Positions 10,890 through 53,441 of a stretch of DNA of 64,000 bases are shown here, piece by piece. Positions within the stretch are counted from its first letter, which is position 1. The number at the start of each line of letters is the position of its first letter. The notes below the pieces were generated by a model, which made no database searches, was not told where the DNA came from, and worked only from the letters and a program-made list of their open reading frames with translations. The position numbers were made by a program, and so were the translations under genes. This DNA comes from Candidatus Hydrogenedentes bacterium ADurb.Bin170 (GTDB taxonomy: Bacteria; Hydrogenedentota; Hydrogenedentia; Hydrogenedentales; CAITNO01): the NCBI GenBank assembly GCA_002070275.1, contig MWCY01000002.1, positions 75,820-139,819 of the forward strand, given 5' to 3'.

Positions 10890-12167
10890 TCAGCTTCCCA
10901 TTTTTTTCAGAATGGCGGACAACCGCTGCTCGCACTGGATGGCGGCACGCACGGTATGATAATTGATCTTCCAGGCATGTCCCATATAATCCCAGAGCAG
11001 GTTGTTGTGCTCATCAAAGAGCGGGTACCACTCACCTACCTCGTGATTGATCACACGATCCATCACAAAGCGGTGCACATTTTCGTAGGCATTCCAGTAT
11101 TTCTCTTCACCGAAAAGCAGAAATGCATCCAGCATGCCGACCAGCGTCTCCGCCTGCTGCCAGAATTCCTTATTCCTTTCCCGGGCAGGCCCGTCGCCGG
11201 GGCCCTCGCAAAAGACACCTCCCCGCTCCCAGTCAATACCATAGCTGTGGCAATGGTCGTACAGCTTTCGCATACGCTCTTTAAAGGGGTCAACGTCAAG
11301 ACCCAGAATGCGCAATGAATGCATGAGCAGCCAGGCAAACTCCACATTGTGCCCGAAGCTGGTATTGTTCATGGGACGTCCCACATCATCCTCCACATCC
11401 CGATCCGAGCCCCATACATTTTTGAAAAGGATAGCGCGGAGCGGCGTCCAGTCAAAAGAAAACTGAGCAATGCCGGTACCGTACACGGGATGAATCATGC
11501 GCTCGAAAATGAGTTCGATGACCCGTACCGTATCCCTTTTGTGGCGGTGGTTCCTCGTTGCCTCATACAGGTTGGTGAACGCTTCCATGAGGTGCATATG
11601 CACGTCCAGCGACTTGCGGTCTCCGCCATAAACGCCGGGTTTCTTCGGCGACCAGTCTTCCTCGAAAAACTCACCGAAGCCGCCATACTGAAGATCGGCG
11701 GAGCGGGTTTTAATAATGTCATAAGCGTCCACGGCATGCTGCAGCACAGCGGAATCCTGAGCTGCCATGGCATATTCGCTCAGCGCATAAACGGCAAAGC
11801 TGTGGCCGTACATGATTTTGGCACGATCAAGAGGGGTACCATCGCGCTCACTTGTCCAATACCAGCCACCATTCTCACGATCTTTGAAATGCTTCAGCAG
11901 GAAATCAACGCCCTGTTTTGCCAGAGGAAGAAATGTTCCGTTATCCAGCCCGGCACGAGAAATGGAGGAAAAGGTATAGATCATGCGTGTCTGACAGACC
12001 AGCGTTTTTACGCCTTCTCCCGTAGGATCGCCGTTTTTATCCAGATACGTTAAAAAGCCGCCGTATTCTTTATCCACGCCCCGGGTTGACCAGAACGGAA
12101 GCAGTTCTTCTGTAAGATGATGCTTCATTTCGCTGTGGGCTTTTTCTACACGTTCTTTCAAAGACAT
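10890..12167 (-). CDS. AGE-family sugar 2-epimerase (N-acylglucosamine/cellobiose 2-epimerase type)
   Basis: A 425-residue protein of the AGE (N-acylglucosamine 2-epimerase) (alpha/alpha)6-barrel family. Motifs are FWSTRGVDKEYGGFLTYLD near the N-terminus, QTRMIYTFS, GHSFAVYALSEYA, LDVHMHLMEAFTNLYEAT, and the C-terminal DYMGHAWKINYHTVRA. The last block resembles the D-x(6)-KxWKxxYHxxRA end of cellobiose 2-epimerases, so a glycan epimerase is more likely than renin-binding protein. The ATG at 12167 has AAGGAA upstream and was preferred over a TTG at 12200. It sits 29 bp behind the exosortase partner gene on the same strand, which suggests one transcript. The substrate is not deducible. Confidence 0.85.
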   Translation of the reverse strand: MSLKERVEKAHSEMKHHLTEELLPFWSTRGVDKEYGGFLTYLDKNGDPTGEGVKTLVCQTRMIYTFSSISRAGLDNGTFLPLAKQGVDFLLKHFKDRENGGWYWTSERDGTPLDRAKIMYGHSFAVYALSEYAMAAQDSAVLQHAVDAYDIIKTRSADLQYGGFGEFFEEDWSPKKPGVYGGDRKSLDVHMHLMEAFTNLYEATRNHRHKRDTVRVIELIFERMIHPVYGTGIAQFSFDWTPLRAILFKNVWGSDRDVEDDVGRPMNNTSFGHNVEFAWLLMHSLRILGLDVDPFKERMRKLYDHCHSYGIDWERGGVFCEGPGDGPARERNKEFWQQAETLVGMLDAFLLFGEEKYWNAYENVHRFVMDRVINHEVGEWYPLFDEHNNLLWDYMGHAWKINYHTVRAAIQCEQRLSAILKKMGS

Positions 12168-12196
12168 AACAAAATTCCTTTCTTCCTGATCGGTAT

Positions 12197-12775
12197 TCAA
12201 GACTGTTCTTTTTCAGAAGGGAGCTGCTTCTCCGTTCCGGAAGCCTTGTCCTGAAACAGCGTCATTAACTTTTCCCAATATGCAAATACTATCCAAAGCA
12301 TGAAAGGCAGGGTCAGGAAAAATTGCACCAGTGCCGTCGGCACTTCGCTGATCAGCATGAGTTTATCCTGAAAACGCATGGCAATGATGATAAAGAAAGC
12401 ATGAAAAAAGCAAAGAATGCCGCAGCCGTAGAGCAGGATAAGCCCGCGCCGTCGCCAGGTCAATCCGGCTGTAGCAAGAACCAGCGCAATATACGGAGGG
12501 ACATTGGTGGCAAGCAGTGCTATTTTCATGCGGCGCTCATGACCGGAAACAGAAAAAACAAGACTGCTTTCCGTATTGAGTTTGCCCTGCACGTCGATGA
12601 ATCCGGAGTCGATAGGAACACCCAGAGCATATTTCAGCGGCAATCCCGTTATCTGCAGCAATGCCTGTCCGTAATACGGAAGGCACTCCCACCACACCAC
12701 AACAAAAAAAACGACAAACACCATAAATTTCAGTGCAAAGAATGGCAGAGCAAAACGTTGTCCCTTAGTGGTCAT
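12197..12775 (-). CDS. exosortase H-associated-type membrane protein
   Basis: A 192-residue integral membrane protein with four hydrophobic helices: FMVFVVFFVVVWWECLPYY near residue 20, IALLATNVPPYIALVLATAG near 95, LILLYGCGILCFFHAFFIII near 120, and a last one around FFLTLPFMLWIVFAYW. Between helices 1 and 2 lies a hydrophilic loop of about 60 residues. The ATG at 12775 overlaps the upstream exosortase stop as ATGA, so the two are translationally coupled. XrtH-type exosortases are known to be accompanied by a small membrane protein of this general layout; I infer the same pairing from position and topology, not from a strong sequence motif. The C-terminus is acidic and soluble. Confidence 0.55.
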   Translation of the reverse strand: MTTKGQRFALPFFALKFMVFVVFFVVVWWECLPYYGQALLQITGLPLKYALGVPIDSGFIDVQGKLNTESSLVFSVSGHERRMKIALLATNVPPYIALVLATAGLTWRRRGLILLYGCGILCFFHAFFIIIAMRFQDKLMLISEVPTALVQFFLTLPFMLWIVFAYWEKLMTLFQDKASGTEKQLPSEKEQS

Positions 12776-13680
12776 GAGCGCACCCTTTTCACCACGTACT
12801 CGACCCAGACCAGCCAAACGGCAACGACAAAAATAATGTAGACTGCCTGCCAGACATACTCGTGGGCGAGATTGAACCAGACGCGGCTCTGGTCTACCGC
12901 CCCGATAATGGCGAGCACGGTAAGCCGGAAAATATTCACGCCATACATGACGGGAATTCCCGCCGCCAGACCGATGACACGCTTACGCCAACAGGTTGGA
13001 AAGGCAAGTATGGCAGCGACAAAAATCGCCATGATTTCTATGGCACCACATTCGGGCACTAAAATAAAGGGGAAAACAAGAGAAAGATCTTCTTTTCCCT
13101 CCTGCTGCTCCTGCCGAAGCGCCTGCACATCGTTTTTCAGGTGCTCGAGCTCCGACTGCAGCGCAGGCGCATCCGAATCAGGCTGGGCTTCCAACTGATT
13201 AATTTTGCCGGAAAGGCTATTGATCCTGGACGAGATACCTTCCCTAAACACGAAATAAACGCGCGGGCCGTTTACACGCCGGGCATCCTGCTTTCTGGTT
13301 GTGACAGCACGCCATGACCAGCGTTCCCAGGCGGAAAGCGGTTCGTCGGAAAGCAGAGCCGTTTCCTCGGAAGAAAGGGATTCTTTGCCTTTTTTCCACG
13401 CCTGCAGGGCGGCGCGGGTTCCCTTAATATCCAGGCGGGAATAATGCAGCGGCTCCACTTCTCCGTGCCCGATACGGTCAAGAACCCAGGCGGTATGACG
13501 GGCAGCCTGAAAAAGGTACCAGTCATTGATGCGGGTAGGGATCAGATACCGGTAGGAAGTGAGCAGCACAAGGGTCGTAATAACAAAAACAGCAACAAAA
13601 AGAAAAATCCGTTTCCGGTTCTCTCTGGATTGTTGCTTTTTTTCTGAAAGTGTCTCACTTGATTCCTGGTTCTGTGTCAT
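12772..13680 (-). CDS. xrtH: exosortase-family protein (XrtH-like) with inserted periplasmic coiled-coil domain
   Basis: A 302-residue protein. The start at 13680 follows an AAGGAG and precedes MTQNQESSET. One helix lies near residues 24-42, then a hydrophilic region of about 150 residues with a predicted coiled coil (roughly 150-197, heptads such as INSLSGKINQLE and LEHLKNDVQALR). From residue 200 on it matches the exosortase/archaeosortase core: PECGAIEIM (Cys211), ILAFPTCWRKRVIG, GVNIFRLTVLAIIG (Arg252) and FNLAHEYVWQAV (His273), the Cys-Arg-His triad of these transpeptidases that cleave CTERM sorting signals. Ordinary XrtH proteins are about 170-190 residues with only a short segment before the Cys, so this one is clearly enlarged. 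No protein in the window carries a recognisable CTERM signal. Confidence 0.8.
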   Translation of the reverse strand: MTQNQESSETLSEKKQQSRENRKRIFLFVAVFVITTLVLLTSYRYLIPTRINDWYLFQAARHTAWVLDRIGHGEVEPLHYSRLDIKGTRAALQAWKKGKESLSSEETALLSDEPLSAWERWSWRAVTTRKQDARRVNGPRVYFVFREGISSRINSLSGKINQLEAQPDSDAPALQSELEHLKNDVQALRQEQQEGKEDLSLVFPFILVPECGAIEIMAIFVAAILAFPTCWRKRVIGLAAGIPVMYGVNIFRLTVLAIIGAVDQSRVWFNLAHEYVWQAVYIIFVVAVWLVWVEYVVKRVRS

Positions 13681-13885
13681 CCCCGGGCAGGCTCCTTGAA
13701 AGGTGGAATATGAATAGAGAAAGTATGCCACAAAAAAGGAGAACACAACAAAAATATGTGATCCAACATTGCAGCAAGGGCTCGGGTCATTCAGAATGCC
13801 TGCCGGAGTGAGAGGTTTATTCCTGTGCCTGAATCATATAGTATAAACAGCCGGATCGACCGATTTTTGATAAGGAAGCGGCGCA

Positions 13886-41363: not shown

Positions 41364-42800
41364 CTAGTGTTTCGGCACCCGGATGATGGTGATATCCGGA
41401 TCACGGTCACCGCGAACAAAGCGTACCAGCAGCCCTTTTCCGGGCTCGGCGTGCTTATCCACCAGTTTGAAGAATTCGCTTGCGGAGCTTACGGCTTCCT
41501 GCCCCACTTCAATAATGATGTCGCCTTCCATGAGGCGTGCTTCCTGGGCAGGGCTACCGGGCTCCACCGCGCTGACGATCACACCTTTAATGGCGGATTT
41601 AATTTCCAGACGCTGCAATATTTCGGGTGTAATCTCTGTCACTTTCATACCCAGCACGGACTTTTCCACCGCCTTACGATCAGCGACAACGGTTCTCTCT
41701 GTCAGATTCACGTCCACAGAAATCTGCTGGCGGTCGCGCCAGATTTCCAGAGTAACGGTAGTACCGGGCGAAAAAGCGGAGATTTTGCGAACCAGTTCGC
41801 TGGCATTCGATATCTCTTCACCGTTCACTTTGCGGATCACGTCATAGGTTTTCAGGCCGGCTTTGTCGGCGGGCGTATCGGGCTGTACCTGCCGCACAAC
41901 AGCACCCCGGTCATCAGGAAGCCCAAGACTGTCCACATCTTTGTATGTATTGGCATCATCAATGGATACGCCAAGATACCCGCGCGTCACTTTGCCCTGA
42001 GAAATCAGCACAGGCACCGTCTGCTTTGCGGTATTGATAGGAATGGCAAATCCGATCGAGTTGGCACCGTAGACGATAGCGGTGTTGATACCGACCACTT
42101 CGCCGTCAATATTGCAGAGGGGACCGCCGCTGTTTCCCAGATTAATGGCGGCATCCGTCTGAATGAGATTCTGGAAAGTCAGTCCCTGCATGGCAAGACC
42201 TACAAGCCCTTCTCTGCCCAGGGCGCTGATGTGCCCGAAGGACACAGAGCCTTCAAAGCCACGGGGACTTCCGATGGCAATGGCGAACTCACCCACTTTC
42301 ACCCGGTCGGAATCGCCCAAAGGCAGGGGGGTCAGATGCTCGCTCGCCTCGATTTTTATGACTGCCAGATCTGTTTCCGGATCAGTGCCGATTATCTGCG
42401 CTTCGAATTCATGACCGTTATACAGGCGGACCGTAATGTCTTCCGCATCTTCCACGACATGGTTATTGGTAATAATATAGCCCTGTGCATCATAAATGAA
42501 GCCGGAGCCGGTACCTCTCGGCCGCTGCATCTGCTGGCGCGGGCGTTGACGTTCCTGCGGTTCGGGCACATTGAAAAAGCGGAAGAAATCTTCCATGGGT
42601 CCGAAGGGAGTCATTGCCTCCGCCTCCGCTTTGCCCTGTACGTCAATATTGACAACTGCCGGGCGCAGCCGTTCGTGAAGCTGGACAAAATTGTCCTGGA
42701 TCTGGCGCAGCAATTCCACGCCTTGACCTTGCTGTGCATAAGCGGTACTGAAAGTTGCCGCCATCACTGCTAAAGCAAGCATCAGTGTTTTCGTTTTCAT
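41364..42800 (-). CDS. degP: DegP/HtrA-type periplasmic serine protease (Do family)
   Basis: A 478-residue protein. The ATG at 42800 follows AAGGAG and opens a signal peptide (residues 1-22, ending STAYA). The trypsin-like catalytic triad is His114 (IITNNHVVED), Asp144 (DPETDLAVIK) and Ser224 (LGNSGGP). Two PDZ domains follow, around GYLGVSIDD to ISAFSPG and VLGMKVTEITPEIL to the end. Length and order match DegP/DegQ quality-control proteases that cleave unfolded envelope proteins. It is 110 bp downstream of the Bat operon end, so it may have its own promoter; it converges with queG on the shared terminator. Confidence 0.95.
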   Translation of the reverse strand: MKTKTLMLALAVMAATFSTAYAQQGQGVELLRQIQDNFVQLHERLRPAVVNIDVQGKAEAEAMTPFGPMEDFFRFFNVPEPQERQRPRQQMQRPRGTGSGFIYDAQGYIITNNHVVEDAEDITVRLYNGHEFEAQIIGTDPETDLAVIKIEASEHLTPLPLGDSDRVKVGEFAIAIGSPRGFEGSVSFGHISALGREGLVGLAMQGLTFQNLIQTDAAINLGNSGGPLCNIDGEVVGINTAIVYGANSIGFAIPINTAKQTVPVLISQGKVTRGYLGVSIDDANTYKDVDSLGLPDDRGAVVRQVQPDTPADKAGLKTYDVIRKVNGEEISNASELVRKISAFSPGTTVTLEIWRDRQQISVDVNLTERTVVADRKAVEKSVLGMKVTEITPEILQRLEIKSAIKGVIVSAVEPGSPAQEARLMEGDIIIEVGQEAVSSASEFFKLVDKHAEPGKGLLVRFVRGDRDPDITIIRVPKH

Positions 42801-42910
42801 ACTCAGGTTCTCCTTAATTTTCTGGGAGGTGATCGATCCGCACTCCATTATGCGTATCGGCATCTCCTCTTCTTTCCAAAGACACAAAGCCTTTACAGGC
42901 TATTTTGCTC

Positions 42911-43666
42911 TCAATGAAACACGCTTTCAACCACCCCTATCAGGTCTTTTTTCGCCCAGCCTTTCTCCCCGCCCTGCACACAAACACGCAGCCACTCCCC
43001 TTCCGTGCGATCCACAAACACACGATCTCCTTCATATAACACGAAACGCGGAGTATCGGATTCCCTGGTACTGAAGTAGACAGGCACTTCTTCGCTGCAG
43101 GCTACTGCCAGCTGCGGCAGTGACCGGCTCGCCTGATTCGCGGCCAGCGTCCAGCCGAAAAGAAGGAGCGCCGCCAGCACGCAAACAACCGCAAGAACAA
43201 GATATCTCCGATGGCTTTTCCAATACAGCAGAAGAGCGAAAACGAAAGCCACAAGAAAGAGTGCGTGCGTGAGGTACAGCCCGTGCAGCGGCTTCAAAGG
43301 CATATACCGCAGCACGGGACTTTCCAGCATGCGTCTGTCCGGCAGGGGCAGATTTCTTCTGGATTTTTCAAGGGCAAGAGCCAGATTCTGACGGGCAGGG
43401 GCAAACCCCGGATCCAGCATCAGCGCCGCTTCATAATAAAGAATGGCGCGCCCGGAAGAGCCTTCATGCTGCCAGGCATTGCCGAGATTAAAAAAGAGTG
43501 CCGGGTTGCATACTCCTTGCTCGGCATGGGCACGGCTAAAAAGATCGGCTGCCTCTTTATAGTTTCCCTGCTGAAAACAATGCTCTCCTTCCGCAAGCAA
43601 AGCTGCCGCTACATCGGGAGCCGCCTGTGAAAAACCCAGCAGAACAATAAGGATCGCCGTTGTCAT
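42911..43666 (-). CDS. batE: BatE-like TPR/SH3 membrane protein
   Basis: A 251-residue protein. A signal sequence (residues 1-16) is followed by TPR units (ALLAEGEHCFQQGNYKEAADLFSRA, NLGNAWQHEGSSGRAILYYEAAL), two transmembrane helices around 125-175 (ALFLVAFVFALLLYW and YLVLAVVCVLAALLLFGWTLA) and a C-terminal bacterial SH3-type domain ending EGEWLRVCVQGGEKGWAKK. This layout is that of BatE in the MoxR-Bat loci. Its start overlaps the BatD stop by 4 bases. It is the last gene of the operon. Confidence 0.8.
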   Translation of the reverse strand: MTTAILIVLLGFSQAAPDVAAALLAEGEHCFQQGNYKEAADLFSRAHAEQGVCNPALFFNLGNAWQHEGSSGRAILYYEAALMLDPGFAPARQNLALALEKSRRNLPLPDRRMLESPVLRYMPLKPLHGLYLTHALFLVAFVFALLLYWKSHRRYLVLAVVCVLAALLLFGWTLAANQASRSLPQLAVACSEEVPVYFSTRESDTPRFVLYEGDRVFVDRTEGEWLRVCVQGGEKGWAKKDLIGVVESVFH

Positions 43667-45444
43667 TTCCCTTCCTCCAGAAACGCCGCATGAAGCGCAT
43701 CAAGAGCATGCAGTGCGGAATCCATAAGCACCGTAAGCTCTTCTTCAGAACCTTTCCCGCCGCCATAGGCAGCGCGCTCACAGGCACGGAGAACACGGAC
43801 AGTCATGTCTATGCTCTCCTGATTCAACCGGGCTTCCTGCAGAAGATGCTGAATTTCCCCGGAAGTGAGACCCGAGCCGTTTATATGAAGCATGTCTGCG
43901 ACAAAAGCGGACAGTGCCTGATAAATACCTGCGCTTTTATCGCCCTTTTCCTTTGCATCCTGCAGCAGGGCAAGGCATTTGCCACGGGCCTGGATGCGAC
44001 GGGCATATCTGGTATCCGTAGCAAGGCGTTTTCTGCGCAGAAGAAACAGCACAGCTGAAACAAGCATAACAGCGCTGATTACGGGACTCAGCAAAGCAGG
44101 CATTGAAAGAATATGTGCCGGAGGGCGGACTGTAAGCGCAGTCAGTCTGCTGTCGGTAATGAGGGGCAATTCGCCCGAACTGTTGATTTCTATTTTCTGT
44201 CTTGCTGTATCGGAAGAACCGCCGACTGCCACGATGCGTCCCGTTTCGCCTGTGGCGCTGACAGTCAGTTTTAATTCCTGAGAAGTCTCTGTTTTGTAAT
44301 TTTTCAGAATAGGCGCGAAATAACTGAAGCTGACAGCCGGGATGACATGCTCGCCTGCTTCCAGCGGTGTGATAAGGTAACTGTAGTTTTTAGTAACTTC
44401 CAGGCTGCCTTCGGTCTGCTTCACTTCAGATTCAGGCTCTGAGACATGAGCCCACGAAGGTTTTTCAAAAAGAGGCATGCCTATAGCCTGAGGATTTCCC
44501 TCACCGGTTATGCTCACAGTCAGGCGCACAGGCGTGCCCTGTGCCACTGAAGCACTGGACAAATAAGCCTGCATACGGAACTTGCCCACCGCCCCGCTGA
44601 AACCGGCAGGCGCACCCTCGGGCAGCGGCAGCACGGTCACAGGAATCGGATGAGTACTGAAAAGCCGCGTGGCACCCTGCGGACGGAACCGCCCTTCCTG
44701 CCAGCGCACGACTCCCTGCCAGGTCCAGGAAGCAATTTGGAGATCCCCGGGCATCGCCGGAAAAAGCACCTGATTAAATTCGGTGATCCGGTAAGCGGCG
44801 CTGTTGTATTCCCCGTTGTACGTATTCTGCCACTGCGGCCCGGAGAAAAAACCCTCTGTTTCGGGAAGAGGCAGCTGACGCGGTGTATCAAGGCTGACAA
44901 AACGTCCGTCCAGCACATAAATAAGCAGCCGCAGCAGTATGGGTTCTCCCTGATACACCGTTGTCTTATCGGCAATGGCACGGACAAAAACAAGATCATC
45001 TACGGCGACTTCCTGCGCAGGGGTTCCGTCTCTGCCTTCAGGGGATACAGAAACCTTTTCGCTGATTTCAAGCGTAAGAGACCGGGTCATCTGCTGCACG
45101 CCATCCACCGTGACAGCCAAGGGTGGCAGCGTATGTGTGCCCGGGGAACCGGCAGCAACAGGATAACGCCAACTCCGGGATTGAACCACCGTTGTGTTGC
45201 CGTTGATGCTTTGGATACTGGTGGAAGACTGGGTGGCGGGCGCTCCGGTTTTGAAACCGAGGCGATGCCAGGGACTGAGATCCGGCTCCTTTACCTCTGA
45301 ACCGCTCGCTGAAATCGTAATATAAAAACTCTCATTGACAGCAGCCTTCAAGGTGGACGCCGAAATGGATACGCCCCCCTGCGCCACAGCAATTCGTGCG
45401 GCCAACAAAAAGATAAGACTGTAACAGAACAGACGGTTCACCAC
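43663..45444 (-). CDS. batD: BatD-family membrane protein
   Basis: A 593-residue protein with a signal peptide (FCYSLIFLLAARIAVAQ) and the BatD (oxygen-tolerance) arrangement: VSISASTLKAAVNESFYITISASG, immunoglobulin-like strands, and PLEAGEHVIPAVSFSYF. A single helix (ILSMPALLSPVISAVMLVSAVLFLL, about 440-465) is followed by a cytoplasmic tail. Bat proteins are thought to act as an envelope complex with VWA proteins and MoxR. The start is a GTG at 45444, with seven bases of overlap with the upstream gene. Confidence 0.85.
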   Translation of the reverse strand: MVNRLFCYSLIFLLAARIAVAQGGVSISASTLKAAVNESFYITISASGSEVKEPDLSPWHRLGFKTGAPATQSSTSIQSINGNTTVVQSRSWRYPVAAGSPGTHTLPPLAVTVDGVQQMTRSLTLEISEKVSVSPEGRDGTPAQEVAVDDLVFVRAIADKTTVYQGEPILLRLLIYVLDGRFVSLDTPRQLPLPETEGFFSGPQWQNTYNGEYNSAAYRITEFNQVLFPAMPGDLQIASWTWQGVVRWQEGRFRPQGATRLFSTHPIPVTVLPLPEGAPAGFSGAVGKFRMQAYLSSASVAQGTPVRLTVSITGEGNPQAIGMPLFEKPSWAHVSEPESEVKQTEGSLEVTKNYSYLITPLEAGEHVIPAVSFSYFAPILKNYKTETSQELKLTVSATGETGRIVAVGGSSDTARQKIEINSSGELPLITDSRLTALTVRPPAHILSMPALLSPVISAVMLVSAVLFLLRRKRLATDTRYARRIQARGKCLALLQDAKEKGDKSAGIYQALSAFVADMLHINGSGLTSGEIQHLLQEARLNQESIDMTVRVLRACERAAYGGGKGSEEELTVLMDSALHALDALHAAFLEEGK

Positions 45445-46400
45445 CAGTTTCCTTTGATTTCAACACTTCGCCGCTTATTGCGTTCTTCCACTTGCTCCCG
45501 GCGATCGGTTTCTTCCAGAGACTGAAGCAAAGCCTCCAGATTTTCATTATTTTCCTCTTTTGTTTCCTCATTCTCTTCGGCATCGGAAAGGTCAGTTGTC
45601 TCAGGAGATTCTTCTTCTCCTTCTCGCGCAGCCGGATCCTCGGCATCCGATGTTTCACCTTCCTGATCCTGATCCTGATCCTGATCCTGATCCTGTTGAT
45701 CCTGCTGATCCTGTTGATCCTGTTGATCCTGTTGATTCTGATCATCGGAGGGCATCGTCACTATAAAGACAAGAAGCAGTTCATCTGCCCCAGCAGGCAG
45801 CCCTCTAAAAAGCAGCGCCTGGTTCATGTGTGCTTCCGCCAGCGTATTCAGGGCATTTACATAAGTGCCATCCTGAAGCATTTCCACACGCGCCTGCAGA
45901 GCAACCGCCCCTTCCTGGCTCATGCTCAACGGCATGACTTTCAATGTATAAACGGCATTGACAGGAAAGAGTGTTTCCTCTCCCCAGGGCAATTCTTTAT
46001 CGTGCACAGCGACTGCTTCATAGCTTGTGAAAGGCAGAGAGGAAAACAGCGGTTTTAAAGACTTGAGTCTTTTATCAATTTTTAATTTCTGCGGGATACC
46101 GCCGGAGGCATGGACGGCATAAAGCCTGCCTGAAACAACGGGCGGTGTCTGGGGCTGCACCATCATACCCGGAGAAGGCACCGCATTCACCGGTGCCGTG
46201 CCAGGTGGCACGGCTCCAGTCCCAGAAGGTGAAGAAGCATGCCCTGATGTGGCTGCTGGTGGCTGAGGCGGCGTGCCTGCCGTGGCGGAGGGAGGCAGCA
46301 TAAAAGACACCTCCGACGGCGGCGTAGGGGCGTTGTCCTGTGCCACGGCTGCCAACGACATCAGCAAGAACTGGAGAACGATCAAGGCAGTGCGTTTCAT
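45438..46400 (-). CDS. Bat-operon secreted protein with repeat-containing acidic tail, unknown domain
   Basis: A 320-residue protein. Signal peptide at residues 1-20 (ending AAVA); then a Pro/Ala/Gly-rich linker to about residue 105; a compact domain at about 108-215; then a low-complexity acidic tail that begins with QQD/QD repeats. The compact domain is homologous to the 149-residue protein at 55-504, without a gap from residue 116 to 212. The tail ends with charged coil RREQVEERNKRR. It overlaps neighbours by 4 and 7 bases, so it is an integral operon member. The position between BatC-like and BatD suggests a role in the Bat complex. Confidence 0.75.
   Translation of the reverse strand: MKRTALIVLQFLLMSLAAVAQDNAPTPPSEVSFMLPPSATAGTPPQPPAATSGHASSPSGTGAVPPGTAPVNAVPSPGMMVQPQTPPVVSGRLYAVHASGGIPQKLKIDKRLKSLKPLFSSLPFTSYEAVAVHDKELPWGEETLFPVNAVYTLKVMPLSMSQEGAVALQARVEMLQDGTYVNALNTLAEAHMNQALLFRGLPAGADELLLVFIVTMPSDDQNQQDQQDQQDQQDQQDQDQDQDQDQEGETSDAEDPAAREGEEESPETTDLSDAEENEETKEENNENLEALLQSLEETDRREQVEERNKRRSVEIKGNWW
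45660..45745 (-). repeat. in-frame 6-bp and 9-bp tandem repeat encoding QD/QQD
   Basis: About five copies of CTGATC run into about five copies of CTGTTGATC (plus-strand reading). Both unit lengths are multiples of three, so slippage changes the length of the QD/QQD tail without breaking the frame. Confidence 0.9.
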
Positions 46401-47101
46401 GATTCGCCCTCCTTTGCTTCGGGCGTTATCAGTTGTACTGTGTTGTCTGTCATTTCCGCACGGGCACCGGGAATATCAGTGGATGCCTGTCCGAAACGGG
46501 ACAGAATCGGCGGCTGCTCTTCTTTCTCCGGCTTTTCTTCCTCTTGTTGCTCTTCGTCCGGCTGCTGCTTAAGCAATTCTTTCAGCTTGAGGCGCAGATG
46601 CTCCAGATTCCTGTAAATTTTAGAAGAATCGGGATAACGTTTCGCCGCTTCTTCGAAAGCTGCGACAGCACGCTGCAGGGCAGCCACAGCGGTCTTAAAG
46701 TCTGCGGCGGGATCAAGGCGCATTGCTTCCTGTGCCAGCAGGGTCGCACGGTTAAAAGCAGCTTCCTGCGCAATATTTTTTTGCGGATCATAAAGCAGAC
46801 CGTCAAAAAAAGCGAGCGCTTCCGCCACCGCACTTTTTTGCTTTTCCGCATCACCGCTTTGTGCGAGTCTCTGCGCCTGCACTGCCCAGGCGTATCCAAG
46901 CGCAAAGCGAAGTTCCGATGACAGCGGGTGTTCCACCTGCAGTTCCTGCAGCTGTGCCAGCGCTCCGTCTGCGTCTCCCGTGTCAAGATGGTTCATCGCT
47001 TCCCGGATGGCATCCTGCAGCCCCGCCGCCTGAGCAATGCCGGTCATCAAAAGGAAAACGACACAGAGGACGCCCGGAATCTGATACCGTTTGTCAGCCA
47101 T
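46397..47101 (-). CDS. BatC-like TPR protein
   Basis: A 234-residue protein with a signal peptide (VLCVVFLLMTGIAQA), TPR-like helices (LDTGDADGALAQLQELQVEHPLS, FEEAAKRYPDSSKIYRNLEHL) and a Glu-rich C-terminal tail. This fits BatC, which often ends in a low-complexity acidic region. It overlaps BatB by 8 bases and the next gene by 4. No catalytic residues. Confidence 0.72.
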   Translation of the reverse strand: MADKRYQIPGVLCVVFLLMTGIAQAAGLQDAIREAMNHLDTGDADGALAQLQELQVEHPLSSELRFALGYAWAVQAQRLAQSGDAEKQKSAVAEALAFFDGLLYDPQKNIAQEAAFNRATLLAQEAMRLDPAADFKTAVAALQRAVAAFEEAAKRYPDSSKIYRNLEHLRLKLKELLKQQPDEEQQEEEKPEKEEQPPILSRFGQASTDIPGARAEMTDNTVQLITPEAKEGES

Positions 47102-48167
47102 GATTCTGTGCCTCCAGACGCATGCGCCGTTTTCGCATGGGTGCCAGCATCAGCATCCAGACACCTTCCAGGAAAAAGAAAAACCAGGCAAGTATCAAAG
47201 GCCACTGATACCTCTCCGTCATTTGAAAGCGCACTTCTCCTGCTGTAACCCGGCTTCTCAGCTGCTTCAGCTCCTGCTGGATAAAGTCAACGTCGCTGTT
47301 GTCCGGCGTTATCCGGACATAGGCGCCGCCGCTTTGCACAGCAATCCTGGACAGGTTCTCTTCATCCAGTTTTGAAAGACGGGTGAGTTTATCTTCGGGA
47401 ATACGCACATACTGACGCAGCCAGGCGGGATAGGTAACGACGGCTCCCTGCGGATCTCCAATACCAATAACATAAATACGCGCATAGCGTCCGATTTGCT
47501 CTGCCAGCGCCAGGGCATCCCCTGCTGTTTCTTCGCCATCACTGAGCAGCAGCACCACGCGGTCGCCGCTATTGTCTTCGCCAAAGCGCTGCGCATCTTC
47601 CTGAAAGACATCGAGCGCCTCTTTCAATGCAGCACTGATATCTGATCCGTCCGTGCTGAGCGTGTTGGTATTAATTGCATCCAGCACAGACCGGAAATAA
47701 CCATGATCCAGCGTGAGGGGACACAGCGTAGCCGCCTCACCGGAAAAAGCCACCAGACCGAAACGGTCAGCCGGCGAACGCTCCAGCAGTGATTCTATTT
47801 TCTGGCGTGCACGAACCAGACGCGTCGGCGGCGGATTTTCCGCATCCATGCTAAGCGAAACATCCAGCACTACCAGCACATCCCGGCTTACCCGGGTAAC
47901 AGGAGCCCATTTTTTGCCCCAGCGCGGTCCGGCCTCCGCCAGAAGCACAAAAAGTATGCCCAGCAGAAAAATCCAGGCGAGCGGCCTGCGCCGCTCAGGC
48001 GACCAGCCGGGCATCAATTGCGCAGCAAGTCCGGACTCAACGAAGCAGTTAAGCCGTGCACCCCGTCTTTTTTCCAGCATGTACAGCAGCACAGCACACA
48101 CTGCCAGAATAAGAACGGCCAGTGCTGTCCAAAGCGGCCATTGATGGAGCGGAAAAGAGAATTGCAT
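47094..48167 (-). CDS. batB: BatB-type von Willebrand factor A membrane protein
   Basis: A 357-residue protein. An N-terminal helix (LAVLILAVCAVLLYMLEKR) and a second at 55-75 bracket a short loop. A VWA domain follows with the MIDAS motif DVSLSMD (DxSxS) in VLVVLDVSLSMDAENPPPTR, and later TDGSDISAALKEAL and VLLLSDGEET. A C-terminal helix (WPLILAWFFFFLEGVWMLML) anchors it. BatB and BatA are the paired VWA subunits of the Bat complex. Spaced 69 bp from BatA. Confidence 0.88.
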   Translation of the reverse strand: MQFSFPLHQWPLWTALAVLILAVCAVLLYMLEKRRGARLNCFVESGLAAQLMPGWSPERRRPLAWIFLLGILFVLLAEAGPRWGKKWAPVTRVSRDVLVVLDVSLSMDAENPPPTRLVRARQKIESLLERSPADRFGLVAFSGEAATLCPLTLDHGYFRSVLDAINTNTLSTDGSDISAALKEALDVFQEDAQRFGEDNSGDRVVLLLSDGEETAGDALALAEQIGRYARIYVIGIGDPQGAVVTYPAWLRQYVRIPEDKLTRLSKLDEENLSRIAVQSGGAYVRITPDNSDVDFIQQELKQLRSRVTAGEVRFQMTERYQWPLILAWFFFFLEGVWMLMLAPMRKRRMRLEAQNHG

Positions 48168-48236
48168 ATACTTACCGCTTCCGTTTCCGCCCGGGTGAAT
48201 ATTTTTTTATTTCAGCAAAAAACCACATAGTGTGCC

Positions 48237-49271
48237 TCATGGAATTTGTTCGAACCAATGGCGCCGCGCCAGTCCTGAAAAAACCAGCACCAGTGCGCCT
48301 GCCGTCAGAAAAGGCAAATACATCACACCTGCTTCTTTGTAGTCACCGATCTCGATTTCCGTTGCTTCCATTTCGCTGATCTCATCATAGGCATTCATGA
48401 GAGAGCGTGTATCCGAGGCAAGATAATATTTTCCTCCGGTCATGGAAGCAATCCCGCTCAGCATTTTTCCGTCGATGGCTTCTGTCCGCCGCGAGAAAAA
48501 GCCCTGCCCGACAATTTTTTCTTCTTCTGATCCGGCACCGATGGTATAAACGCGTATCCCGTATTCTTTGGCGAGCCGCGCCGCCGTCATAGGATCAAGA
48601 TCGCCCCGGTTGTTCTGGCCGTCCGTCAGCAGAATGACGACCTTTGATTTTGCCTCTGATTTGCTGAGACGGCGCACTGCCAGGCCCAATGCTGAACCGA
48701 TGGCAGTACCCTGCTTCCGTTCGTCTGCTATCTCAGCGCGATCCAGTTCGTGCTCCAGAACATCATAATCAAGCGTCAGGGGACACTGTGTCCACGCCAG
48801 TCCTGAAAAAAGAACCAGCCCCACACGATCCAGACCGTAGCGTGAGCCCGCCGTTTCCCGGCGACTGTCAATAAAGCTCCGTGCGGCTTCCCGGGCAACA
48901 TACATACGATCCCGCGGGCGTCCGCCGACGAGAAAGTCCGTTTCACGCATACTGCCTGACACGTCCAGACATAAAACAATGTCAATAATGCCGGCACGTT
49001 CTTTATTCAACTGCCAGCCTTCCAACGGGCCCGCCAGCGCAACAGTCAGCAAGGCAAGTCCAAGGGCACGCCCCAAAGCTGTCAGCCGGGAAAGAACGCC
49101 TGAGTGATACCGGTAAAGCGAACGGATCCGCTCTCCTGTGGAGATATGAATCACGCCGGAGGCGGCCGGGAAACATTCCCAAATGAACAACGCCAGCACA
49201 GGCAGAAGCAGCCAGAGCATTTCCGGTGATGAAAATCCGGGTGAAGCCAGAAGTCGGGACAGCCAGTTCAT
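48237..49271 (-). CDS. batA: BatA-type von Willebrand factor A membrane protein
   Basis: A 344-residue protein with two N-terminal helices (MLWLLLPVLALFIWE and ALGLALLTVALAGPLEGW), a VWA domain with an intact MIDAS motif in IIDIVLCLDVSGSMRE, plus GTAIGSALGLAVRRL and VVILLTDGQNNRG, and one C-terminal helix (YLPFLTAGALVLVFSGLAR). This is the classical BatA layout. The start overlaps the upstream gene by 4 bases, and it precedes BatB in the same operon. Confidence 0.88.
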   Translation of the reverse strand: MNWLSRLLASPGFSSPEMLWLLLPVLALFIWECFPAASGVIHISTGERIRSLYRYHSGVLSRLTALGRALGLALLTVALAGPLEGWQLNKERAGIIDIVLCLDVSGSMRETDFLVGGRPRDRMYVAREAARSFIDSRRETAGSRYGLDRVGLVLFSGLAWTQCPLTLDYDVLEHELDRAEIADERKQGTAIGSALGLAVRRLSKSEAKSKVVILLTDGQNNRGDLDPMTAARLAKEYGIRVYTIGAGSEEEKIVGQGFFSRRTEAIDGKMLSGIASMTGGKYYLASDTRSLMNAYDEISEMEATEIEIGDYKEAGVMYLPFLTAGALVLVFSGLARRHWFEQIP

Positions 49272-50209
49272 AAGCGGTCATCCCCTTCTGTTCGGAATAC
49301 TGTATCCGGAATGGTCTGCTGTACAAGCGTTTTAACGCCGGTGAAATGCTCCTCCATTTCCGCAATGCCGGGGTTATACCGGGCAAACTTGACCCGATCA
49401 CATTGACAGAGAAAGGACTTGAGAAACAGATGCTGGTCGTCTCGGAGTTCCGTTTCTTTCTGAGCCGCTTCCAGCAGTTCCGGCGTGGTCTGCTCGGGAG
49501 CAGGAATCTGAAACCGGTCTTCAAAGTAATACCGCATAATGGCACTGAGATCGACGTAATAAAGATCCGATCGCCCCTGCCCCGGCAAATCTCTGGTCTG
49601 CAGCTCACGGAGCCGGTTCAGTGCCATCGTCCACGGCGGCAACGGAGGCGGCGCGGGCTGATATGCCCGACGGCGCTTCCACCACAATGCGAGCAGGACA
49701 CAGACCGCTGCTGCAGCCAGCACCGGAAACAAATACAGCCATCTGTAATTCCGTCTTTCTTTCAGGAAAAACGACGGCGAAGTAAGCCCTTCAAAATGCG
49801 AGGCGAACTCCTTTTCTTCGGGAGTCAGTTCTCGGGCGGTAAATGCAAGCGGTGCGCTTTCCAGAACACCTGTGTTTTCTCCGTCCGCCCAGCCAATATT
49901 CAGAGGCGGGAAAAGCCAGTTGCCCGCAGACAAGGGATCAATCACATACTGCTGCCGGTGCCGGAGCGTGCCATCATCCAAATGCTCCACGTTTTTTTCA
50001 GACTTCCGAACCTGAACCTGTCCTTTTTTTTCAGCAACATCAGGAAAAGTAATCTGCGCCGATGCCGGTGCCTGCACAGACAACTCCACGGCAATGGAGC
50101 GATGCCAGGGGGCTTCAGGCGGTTCAAGCAGCGCATCGATGGGAAAATCCGACGCGGCAGGCAGTACCGCCAGAAAAGAAAGGATCAGAATCCGGACACT
50201 TCGCATCAC
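49268..50209 (-). CDS. DUF4381-like membrane protein of the Bat operon
   Basis: A 313-residue protein with a signal peptide, an extracytoplasmic beta-rich N-terminal region (VELSVQAPASAQITFPDVAE), one helix (LYLFPVLAAAAVCVLLALWW) and a cytoplasmic helical part (YYVDLSAIMRYYFEDRFQIPAPEQTTPELL). The last block, with an R-Y-Y-x-E-x-R-F-x-(I/L)-P pattern, resembles DUF4381 proteins that accompany MoxR/DUF58 genes. Four-base overlaps on both sides show coupling. Confidence 0.7.
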   Translation of the reverse strand: MMRSVRILILSFLAVLPAASDFPIDALLEPPEAPWHRSIAVELSVQAPASAQITFPDVAEKKGQVQVRKSEKNVEHLDDGTLRHRQQYVIDPLSAGNWLFPPLNIGWADGENTGVLESAPLAFTARELTPEEKEFASHFEGLTSPSFFLKERRNYRWLYLFPVLAAAAVCVLLALWWKRRRAYQPAPPPLPPWTMALNRLRELQTRDLPGQGRSDLYYVDLSAIMRYYFEDRFQIPAPEQTTPELLEAAQKETELRDDQHLFLKSFLCQCDRVKFARYNPGIAEMEEHFTGVKTLVQQTIPDTVFRTEGDDRL

Positions 50210-51099
50210 AGGGCTGCCCTCCCTGCCCGGCGACGTTCACGGAGTTTAAAAAAGCGGTACAGCTCATCCACATAGGATTTGTCCGTTGAAAGGCGGAGGC
50301 TGTCAATCCGGTTACGCCGGAAAATTTCTTCCCGTGCCGCAGTCTCTTCCCGCGCTTTTTGCGCATAGGCTTCCCTGAGTTTTCTGTCGCCTGTATTGAT
50401 CAGTATTTCTCTCCCTGTTTCAGCATCAGCAACAGCGACCCGCCCCACATCAGGCAAACTCATTTCTCTGGGATCGGAAACAGAGACCGCAATAACGTCA
50501 TGCCGTTTCGCTGTCACCCGCAAAGCATCTTCATAACCCTGATCCATGAAATCTGAAACAAGAAAGACCACAGCTTTTCTGGAGATGACCCTGTTCAGAT
50601 AATTCAGAGCACGCGTAATATTCGTTGCCCTGCCTTTGGGCTGAAAGTAAAGGACTTCCCTAATGATACGCAGTACATGGCGGCTCCCTTTCTGCGGCGG
50701 GACATAAAGCTCCAGATCATCGGTAAAGATCAGAAGGCTGACTTTATCGTTATTGTTGATCGCTGAAAGCGCCAGCACGGCACAAAGTTCCGCTGCGAGC
50801 TCGTTTTTCAGACGGGACACGCTTCCAAACCGGCCGGAACCGCTCATATCCACCAAAAGCGCCACCGTCAGCTCCCGTTCTTCCGCCATTACTTTCACAT
50901 GAGGCTCGCCCGTTCGCGCTGTGACATTCCAGTCAATCGAGCGGATATCGTCGCCCGGCACATAGGAACACACTTCACGGAATTCCATGCCCTGCCCTTT
51001 GAAGGCGCTCTGATACTGCCCCGCCAGAATCTCATTAACTGTCCGGCGGGTGCGGATCTGAATGCGCCTTATTTTTTTGATGGCATCCTGTGAAATCAT
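50206..51099 (-). CDS. DUF58 domain protein (MoxR partner)
   Basis: A 297-residue soluble protein. The start (ATG 51099) has an AGGA site. Typical DUF58 blocks are GQYQSAFKGQGMEFREVCSYVPGDDIRSIDWNVTARTGEPHVKV read in pieces: the R-E-(V/Y)-x-x-Y-x-x-G-D-D-(I/V)-R-x-I-D-W motif, followed by a VWA-like domain with VALLVDMSGSGRFGS. DUF58 proteins are regularly paired with MoxR ATPases. One gene, the GxxExxY-like protein, lies between it and moxR, which is unusual. Confidence 0.9.
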   Translation of the reverse strand: MISQDAIKKIRRIQIRTRRTVNEILAGQYQSAFKGQGMEFREVCSYVPGDDIRSIDWNVTARTGEPHVKVMAEERELTVALLVDMSGSGRFGSVSRLKNELAAELCAVLALSAINNNDKVSLLIFTDDLELYVPPQKGSRHVLRIIREVLYFQPKGRATNITRALNYLNRVISRKAVVFLVSDFMDQGYEDALRVTAKRHDVIAVSVSDPREMSLPDVGRVAVADAETGREILINTGDRKLREAYAQKAREETAAREEIFRRNRIDSLRLSTDKSYVDELYRFFKLRERRRAGRAAL

Positions 51100-51123
51100 G
51101 GAATCCTGTCTCCTGCCCGGAGT

Positions 51124-51618
51124 CTATTTTTTGCCTTGTTCTCGAAGAATATTCTGGCTCTGTTCAGGAACTCTCAGCCAGCTTCCGGTAATTGTGTTGT
51201 ACTCGAAAGGGATGCATCGGAATTTTTTTCCGAAGTTCAACATTACGCAGGCTTCAAAATTGTGGTTGTCTGTGCAAAAACCGAGTTCCTCTTCAACAAC
51301 GGATTTCGGTTTTTCCGGACTGGCAATCATGACGGCAAGCCGCTTATCCAGAAGAAAGTCGACAGCAAAGCCACAGTTCAGCTTCATGCCGTCCAGATAT
51401 TCGGGAAACCAGACATCGGATTTGGAGGGAACCCCTGCTTTGCTCCAGGCTTTTTCAAGCAATGCAAAGAGGGTGTTCCGATCCGGCGGCGCTTCAGCCT
51501 GTGCGGCAATATCCGCACCCGTTGCTTCGGCAAGGGCAATCAGCGCCTTGGAACTGAATTCTTTCTTTTTTGCTGCCATAACTGCGGTACTTTCATTTTT
51601 ACGGTAGTTCGGAATCAT
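51124..51618 (-). CDS. GxxExxY-like protein (probably degenerate nuclease fold)
   Basis: A 164-residue protein coupled to moxR by a TGATG overlap at 51618. Residues 80-140 read KLNCGFAVDFLLDKRLAVMIAS, then NHNFEACVMLNFGKKFRCIPF. This order (D in a VDFL strand, then a strand with an E-x-K expected, then (L/M)NFG) resembles the PF13366 GxxExxY family of PD-(D/E)XK-like proteins. Asp87 is present, but at the E-x-K position MIAS (97-100) is found, so a nuclease is unlikely to be active. The N-terminal 60 residues, Lys- and Ala-rich, look like an added tail. The assignment rests on pattern and is uncertain; a second ATG at 51579 is possible. Confidence 0.5.
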   Translation of the reverse strand: MIPNYRKNESTAVMAAKKKEFSSKALIALAEATGADIAAQAEAPPDRNTLFALLEKAWSKAGVPSKSDVWFPEYLDGMKLNCGFAVDFLLDKRLAVMIASPEKPKSVVEEELGFCTDNHNFEACVMLNFGKKFRCIPFEYNTITGSWLRVPEQSQNILREQGKK

Positions 51619-52604
51619 CAGGGCACAGGCACATTTTCAAGAATCCGGCGGATAATATCTTCGCTGGTAATATTTTCCGCTTCCGCCTCGTAACTCACTT
51701 TGATGCGGTGCCTGAGTACATCCATGGCAACCTGCTTGACATCATTGGGAAAGACATTCCCTTCGCCCTGAAGAAATGCCATGGCGCGGGATGCCTGCTG
51801 CAGATAAATGGACGCCCGGGGAGAGGCACCGTATTCAATGAGATTCCGGATGGGAATATCAAAGGCCTCAGGCTCCCGGGTAGCATAGACCAGATCAACA
51901 ATGTAATTTTTTGCCTTGTCATCGACATAAATGCGGTTCACCACTTCCCGCGCCTGCAGCAGCTGCTCTTTGGTGACGACGGTGGAAACACCAGCCGGAT
52001 GCAGCAAATCCACGCGGTCCATAATTTCCCGCTCTTCCTGACGGCTGGGATAGGTTACCCGAAGCTTCAGCATAAAACGGTCCACCTGTGCTTCCGGGAG
52101 CGGGTAGGTGCCTTCCTGCTCTATGGGATTCTGCGTTGCCAGAACCATAAAGGGCTCATCCAGCGCATAGGTATTTTCGCCTATAGTCACCTGACGTTCC
52201 TGCATGGCTTCAAGAAGGGCGCTCTGGACTTTTGCCGGTGCTCTGTTGATTTCATCGGCAAGGATAATATTGCCGAAAACAGGCCCTTTGCGGGTGACAA
52301 ATTCACCGGTCTTAGGCGTATATATCAAAGTACCGATGAGATCCGCAGGCAGAAGATCCGGCGTAAATTGGATCCGGCGGAAACTGCAGTCCATGGCATG
52401 CGCCAACGTGGTGACGGCAGTTGTTTTTGCAAGGCCGGGCACACCTTCGATCAGCACATGGCCGTTGGCAAGCATCGCCGTCAGCAGACGATCTATCATA
52501 TACTGCTGCCCCACAATAATGCGGCCGATCTCTTCACGCAGGCGGTTTACGAAAGCAGCGTGTTCTTCCACACTGCGGCGGACTGCATCTACATTCACCG
52601 ACAT
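51618..52604 (-). CDS. moxR: MoxR-family AAA+ ATPase
   Basis: A 328-residue AAA+ protein. Walker A is GVPGLAKTT (residues 54-62), Walker B lies in IILADEINRAPAKVQSALLEAMQERQVT, sensor and arginine motifs follow in VLATQNPIEQEGTYPLPEAQVDRFMLKL, and the C-terminal helical lid contains EYGASPRASIYLQQASRAMAFLQG. MoxR ATPases are thought to act as chaperones that load or activate VWA/DUF58 partners, here probably the Bat complex. It is separated from the preceding gene (52611) by 6 bases. Confidence 0.95.
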   Translation of the reverse strand: MSVNVDAVRRSVEEHAAFVNRLREEIGRIIVGQQYMIDRLLTAMLANGHVLIEGVPGLAKTTAVTTLAHAMDCSFRRIQFTPDLLPADLIGTLIYTPKTGEFVTRKGPVFGNIILADEINRAPAKVQSALLEAMQERQVTIGENTYALDEPFMVLATQNPIEQEGTYPLPEAQVDRFMLKLRVTYPSRQEEREIMDRVDLLHPAGVSTVVTKEQLLQAREVVNRIYVDDKAKNYIVDLVYATREPEAFDIPIRNLIEYGASPRASIYLQQASRAMAFLQGEGNVFPNDVKQVAMDVLRHRIKVSYEAEAENITSEDIIRRILENVPVP

Positions 52605-52610
52605 GGCTTA

Positions 52611-53441
52611 TCAGACTCCTTGTGTTTCATGTGCCCGGGAGAGGGCACACACTTGTTCGACATCCTTAAAGTCGCCCTCAAGATCGGTCCCGGAGGGGCG
52701 CTTACCACGGTATCCCGTGTCATTCATCCCTTTTTCCAGACGGGAAAGAAGGGCAGGCGGTACAGTACGACCGTTGTCATTGCATTGCAGTGCGATGCTG
52801 TGCAGCAAACGGTAGCATTCGTAGTAACTGCCGTCCAGGCGCAGGCGTCGTGCCTGATGCAACAGGCTGCTCAGCCTTTCATCCAATGTCGGTTCAGCCA
52901 CGGCAGAACTGCTCCGCTTTTTTGCTCTGCGCCGCAAATACAGGAGAAAACAGGCGAGAAACAGCGCTGAACCGCCCAGTCCCGCAGGGAAAAGAAAGGG
53001 TGTCTTTCCCCCCGCATGAATATCCAGCGCTTCAGTTATCACGCTTTCAGATGCAGCAGGCAGCAACTCAGTTACGCTCTGTTCTCCCTTGTCTTTTTCT
53101 TCAAGGGGAAAGAATTGAAAAGTCAAGGCAGGCAACACATGATTGCCCGGCTGCACAGGCGTTATACCAAGAACAGTCACAGCTTTCATCTGAGCGCCAT
53201 TTTTGTGGATCCTGGCTGACAGTACTCTCAGTCTGCCCCATTCAATTTCCGGAAGTACCGGGGGCAGAAGCGCGCGAGATGCATCCGCATCCGTCCAGGA
53301 AAAAGTCCAGCTGATCCGGCTTTCAATATTCAAAGGAAAATCACGGGGCAAAGGGTTCACTTCAACGGTTACGTCTGCACCGAAGGTATTCAGCATTGGC
53401 AGAAGCGCCAGGATAGCAAAATATAGGAAGATTTTTTTCAT
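52611..53441 (-). CDS. first Bat-operon gene: secreted BatD-like short protein
   Basis: A 276-residue protein with a signal peptide (LYFAILALLPMLNTFGA), a beta-rich periplasmic domain (VTVEVNPLPRDFPLNIESRI to ITPVQPGNHVLPALTFQFFP), one helix (FPAGLGGSALFLACFLLYLRRR) and a cytoplasmic helical domain (LRLDGSYYECYRLLHSIAL). The periplasmic part has the Ig-like feel of BatD and its tail resembles the one in the BatD gene downstream, so it may be a shortened relative. It leads the operon; its promoter must lie in 53442-53932. Confidence 0.65.
   Translation of the reverse strand: MKKIFLYFAILALLPMLNTFGADVTVEVNPLPRDFPLNIESRISWTFSWTDADASRALLPPVLPEIEWGRLRVLSARIHKNGAQMKAVTVLGITPVQPGNHVLPALTFQFFPLEEKDKGEQSVTELLPAASESVITEALDIHAGGKTPFLFPAGLGGSALFLACFLLYLRRRAKKRSSSAVAEPTLDERLSSLLHQARRLRLDGSYYECYRLLHSIALQCNDNGRTVPPALLSRLEKGMNDTGYRGKRPSGTDLEGDFKDVEQVCALSRAHETQGV

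Follow-up and report, generated by a model that had tools for sequence, protein, structure and literature searches.

An XrtH-like exosortase of Hydrogenedentota with an apparently phylum-specific periplasmic insert

Exosortases target secreted proteins that carry a C-terminal motif, a helix and a basic cluster, and PEP-CTERM proteins have been tied to extracellular polysaccharide and biofilm (PMC12188702). The classical system consists of an eight-helix EpsH enzyme, an EpsI-type partner and PEP-CTERM substrates. In the XrtH system (TIGR04177), the enzyme is a short protein with a short loop before the catalytic cysteine and is accompanied by a membrane protein of the NF041730 (XrtH_assoc) family; IPTL-CTERM (TIGR04174) is the tag of XrtH. 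A search of the available literature collection for exosortases in Hydrogenedentota found nothing, and PDB searches returned no solved relative of an exosortase or of the XrtH partner. The locus described here lies in a 64,000-nucleotide stretch of a Hydrogenedentota genome, the whole of which is called the window. It encodes Hydrogenedentota's own version of an XrtH-like exosortase system, distinguished by a domain that appears to be confined to the phylum.

The exosortase operon

The exosortase gene occupies positions 12772-13680 of the minus strand and encodes 302 residues. The residue numbers used here are counted from the ATG at 13680, the reading frame being open from 13746 (12772-13746, minus strand). 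Profile searches with the exosortase models placed the core inside the superfamily: the exosortase/archaeosortase signature TIGR04178 reached 53.6 bits, its cut-off being 23, and XrtH was the best specific model with 70.8 bits, although this is under its own cut-off of 86. All 28 members of the exosortase family match the XrtH model. PF09721 scored 21.3 bits, under its gathering score of 25.7; this is a model of the eight-helix type, TIGR04178 being the broader test. Cys211 of the PECGAIE motif (13048-13050), Arg252 (12925-12927) and His273 (12862-12864), all on the minus strand, are invariant in 28 of 28 homologues. Membership of the superfamily and the Cys/Arg/His triad, both proposed in the initial annotation, are established by these computations, and the layout is as it was described there, a single N-terminal transmembrane helix followed by some 150 mostly hydrophilic positions and the transmembrane core.

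Among named genomes, Candidatus Hydrogenedentota supplies nearly all of the closest loci. The exosortase signature was found in 60 of 68 Hydrogenedentota genomes, and its single match in the window's genome is the sole exosortase there. The profile of the insert-type enzyme matched 50 of the 68 genomes (33 of the 38 best assemblies), with one gene per genome, second profile rows being mostly fragments of the same gene. A search of a plasmid collection yielded distant XrtM only.

The next gene (12197-12775, minus strand) encodes a divergent exosortase H-associated membrane protein, whose start lies inside the exosortase stop codon in an ATGA overlap (12775-12772). NF041730 matches six of nine members of the partner family (best E 7.4e-6), the window's own partner sequence being below detection. 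The partner is adjacent to or fused with the exosortase in 31/31 loci, and in 13 of them the two share one open frame; one such natural fusion (L003/G008) has 500 aa. In a tree of 28 exosortases the fused or separate state changes four times, and at least three of these changes are forced by well-supported branches. Thus, the operon with a partner protein that had been proposed is found throughout, the partner is obligate and its fusion with the exosortase is recurrent. The recurrent fusion supports a direct complex of the two proteins. AlphaFold2 (AF2) modelled a natural exosortase-partner fusion with a pLDDT of 88.7 and a pTM of 0.84.

The third gene (10890-12167, minus strand), whose ATG at 12167 is 29 bp past the partner stop, encodes a sugar 2-epimerase of the AGE superfamily (PF07221, 171 bits) that is closest to the mannose 2-epimerase type. 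Among solved structures its nearest relative is 8h1k (454 bits), apparently the free-mannose 2-epimerase of Runella; several N-acylglucosamine epimerase entries scored 57-100 bits. An identity as GlcNAc epimerase was rejected, the specific models being far below cut-off (NF052547, N-acylglucosamine 2-epimerase, 124 bits against 600). The enzyme probably acts on free mannose. An epimerase gene follows the exosortase-partner pair in 15 of the 29 loci with enough sequence, over six families (f1, f2, f4, f7, f8 and f10), and it therefore looks like an old operon member that was lost several times. In one genome (L197 2890-5880, G003:C20) exosortase, partner and epimerase form a single open frame of 996 aa.

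The association of the epimerase with the operon thus proved real across the phylum. The further proposal, that the sorted protein is glycosylated with a sugar which it supplies, is unproven, and the link to glycosylation is weak because a free-sugar epimerase does not feed glycosylation directly. Attachment of the sorted protein to a mannose-type sugar, or its decoration with one, would fit the spread of the gene over six families and the one genome where it shares the open frame, but this is very improbable: the closest solved relative is apparently not a nucleotide-sugar enzyme, the operon is without a glycosyltransferase, and 14 of the 29 loci have the same exosortase with no epimerase.

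Elsewhere in the window, an ankyrin-repeat protein of 888 aa is encoded at 59356-62022, and a Bat-type locus with a trypsin-like/PDZ protease, a BatD-like protein and a VWA protein occupies 41364-53441 on the minus strand.

The periplasmic insert

The window enzyme and its Hydrogenedentota homologues carry an inserted periplasmic region of roughly 125 residues (about 77-200; 13081-13452, minus strand), placed after the first short strand and before the strand that leads to Cys211. In nearly all Hydrogenedentota carriers the match to the family profile extends over the insert. Among 223 genomes from outside the phylum the same profile had matches in 7, limited to the core, and the XrtH-like proteins of these seven genomes are without the insert. 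Those read are mostly of 182-192 aa with the catalytic cysteine at 84-102, versus 211 in the window enzyme; for one of them, in G150, the open frame reaches further in the 5' direction. Since the 223 outside genomes yield only core matches, the insert appears to be a trait of Hydrogenedentota. Chance, an annotation artefact and a frameshift were ruled out as its origin, the region being homologous across dozens of genomes, phylum-wide. The insertion noted initially is in this respect real, and relatives of ordinary length outside the phylum are without it.

The structure of the window exosortase was predicted with AF2 (pLDDT 86.7, pTM 0.81). The region of residues 43-200, for which a prediction had been suggested, was modelled as helices and strands, and the insert mostly with good confidence. 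A long helix including the transmembrane segment is followed by a helix (50-70), a strand (72-75), small helices (85-96, 104-108 and 117-131), a strand with the sequence GPRVYFV (140-146), two helices (149-163 and 171-194), a strand (201-206) and the core helices. From the order of these elements, strand 140-146 would pair with strand 201-206, and the two helices would pack as an antiparallel hairpin. Foldseek of the insert against the PDB gave no match with E below 0.5, a sequence search for a solved relative of the insert found none, and a Pfam scan found no family there that members have in common.

Conservation is unevenly distributed over the insert. Residues 114-148 (13237-13341, minus strand), just before the active site, form a conserved block, L(T/S)xWExWxxRA...GPRVxF, which in the model comprises helix 117-131 and strand 140-146. 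The mean frequency of the commonest residue is 0.62 in this block and 0.67 at residues 46-76, and reaches the lowest value of the insert, 0.37, at 150-197. The latter stretch had been described as a heptad coiled coil. It is helical, but it is not one continuous coil, the helices 149-163 and 171-194 being split by a loop to give a variable hairpin (149-194; 13099-13236, minus strand). The earlier suggestion that the insertion recruits a substrate or partner does not hold as worded, the coiled coil being the least conserved part; given this variability, recruitment would more plausibly rest on the LTxWExW...GPRVxF block near the active site.

From conservation and the model, two readings of the insert's role were weighed. 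The insert may serve structure or assembly, as a docking site for the partner, for peptidoglycan or for an export machine, and make no contact with the substrate. This alternative is the less likely one. In its favour, the partner is obligate and was fused more than once, the hairpin is variable, the insert is longer in family f11 and no fold match was obtained for it. Outside the phylum, however, a relative of the partner adjoins XrtH-like genes in six of the loci read, and these enzymes are without the insert; pairing with the partner is thus independent of the insert. The position of the conserved strand, directly before the hairpin and the strand to Cys211, also speaks against a purely structural element. 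The reading preferred here is that the insert, with its conserved strand just ahead of the strand to Cys211, would act as a lid or as a surface for docking, and would select the tag or present the acceptor; the helical hairpin may serve as a spacer or contact arm.

Candidate substrates and their tag

The initial annotation placed the substrate outside the window and called for a search of the genome for proteins that end in a motif, a helix and a basic cluster. A search of the window's genome for PEP-CTERM gave no match, and PEP-CTERM proteins were thereby ruled out as substrates there. A de novo scan for proteins that are soluble but for a helix at the C-terminus, followed by a basic tail, covered 1.25 Mb, about 36% of the window's genome, while the profile search covered the whole genome. 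Tails from the scan include TTVPAAGAVALVALSAALAGIGLARSRRK and REMPATGGLGLAILLALGTVGGTAVLRKKQK. Independently, TIGR04174 (IPTL-CTERM) matched GVPALSRLGVLLASAAALAAGAAALRKKRD at G000:C35 with 24.9 bits against a cut-off of 20.5, the one protein over cut-off in this genome. A custom tag profile (A4), built from 23 tails, all of Hydrogenedentota, located six candidate proteins in the same genome, and the substrate is thus encoded outside the window, as expected. The candidate tag consists of a VPAxG-like motif ([VILM]P[AV]xG/S), a hydrophobic helix and RRRK, and is related to IPTL-CTERM. In the window's genome it is carried by, among others, secreted proteins that have Ig, Bact_surface_Ig-like, PASTA (G000:C11) and GDSL (G000:C15) domains.

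The custom profile matched 46 of the 68 Hydrogenedentota genomes, including 17/17 of the window's family. Of the 29 genomes that have the insert-type enzyme and no other exosortase, 24 have the tag and 4 have PEP-CTERM; across Hydrogenedentota, PEP-CTERM counts track the other, non-insert exosortases (rho 0.75, p 1e-13). Among the 223 genomes outside the phylum, seven have the tag, seven the XrtH-like core and four both (hypergeometric p 1.2e-5). This control matters because the tag profile was trained within Hydrogenedentota and the outside set holds no training sequences. Two of the outside XrtH-like loci have IPTLSEWG or VPALTKWS proteins nearby. Within the phylum the association is not significant (tag in 37 of 50 genomes with the enzyme versus 9 of 18 without it, p 0.08), partly because of incomplete genomes. 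The f4 genomes and many of f11 have the enzyme and few or no detected tags.

One tagged protein of the window's genome, G000:C112 (L179 1506-2771), belongs to a secreted family of about 420 aa whose members have the tag as well as a C-terminal Ig domain and occur in f1, f5 and f8. It is probably a core substrate. That the enzyme serves mainly this one housekeeping substrate, the other tagged proteins being later recruits, is rather unlikely. Tagged homologues with 28-46% identity do occur in eight other genomes of the three families, and there are f5 genomes with only one or two tagged proteins, one of them of this family; yet f1 genomes have 4-17 tagged proteins of varied architecture, up to 1800 aa and more.

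A second C-terminal class is present in the window's genome, with GCxC or GCC, a spacer and a G[DE]-x-hydrophobic-GLS tail, which an acidic stretch precedes in two of three members (L085 2954-5086, L102 5177-11800 and L052 1213-1866, on G000:C1, C8 and C10).

We consider it probable, from the sequence comparisons and the models, that the XrtH-type exosortase of Hydrogenedentota, in a complex with its XrtH-associated partner, cleaves and probably re-attaches secreted proteins that carry a phylum variant of the IPTL-CTERM tag. The tag helix of the substrate would enter the membrane core of the enzyme, and Cys211 would attack close to the [VILM]P motif, on the periplasmic side. A bolder version, in which the insert is a new domain for selecting substrate or acceptor that has turned the XrtH core into a phylum-specific surface-anchoring transpeptidase, a single enzyme-partner machine (once in frame with a mannose-type epimerase) with a sugar-bearing lipid as acceptor, is improbable. 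The likely target tag of the Hydrogenedentota exosortase can now be named. Natural enzyme-partner fusions offer a construct in a single chain for which the model is confident. The window's genome, where about six tagged proteins face one exosortase and PEP-CTERM is absent, offers a simple substrate set; together these make tag recognition by an exosortase directly testable.

Comparison with known systems

Archaeosortase B (TIGR04144), XrtX (NF046081) and XrtF (TIGR04128) resemble the window core with 51-59 bits, but these scores are lower than that of XrtH and far under the models' own cut-offs, and the models (156-174 positions) are too short to hold such an insert. The classical EpsH system shares the superfamily core; it differs in having more transmembrane helices, no insert, another partner and another tag. 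Loci of other Hydrogenedentota (L013-L031) encode classical multi-helix exosortases with an EpsI-type partner, some of them fused to it (L021, L022 and L028). These constitute a separate, parallel system, and the non-insert exosortases are classical where read.

The XrtH system is the closest: XrtH is the best-scoring specific family and has the same Cys/Arg/His core, the adjacent partner belongs to the same family, and the C-terminal tags are related. The Hydrogenedentota enzyme, in contrast to the short XrtH, carries the periplasmic insert before its cysteine and falls under the XrtH cut-off, its partner is fused in many genomes, and its candidate tag is VPAxG-like, whereas that of XrtH is IPTLxxWG.
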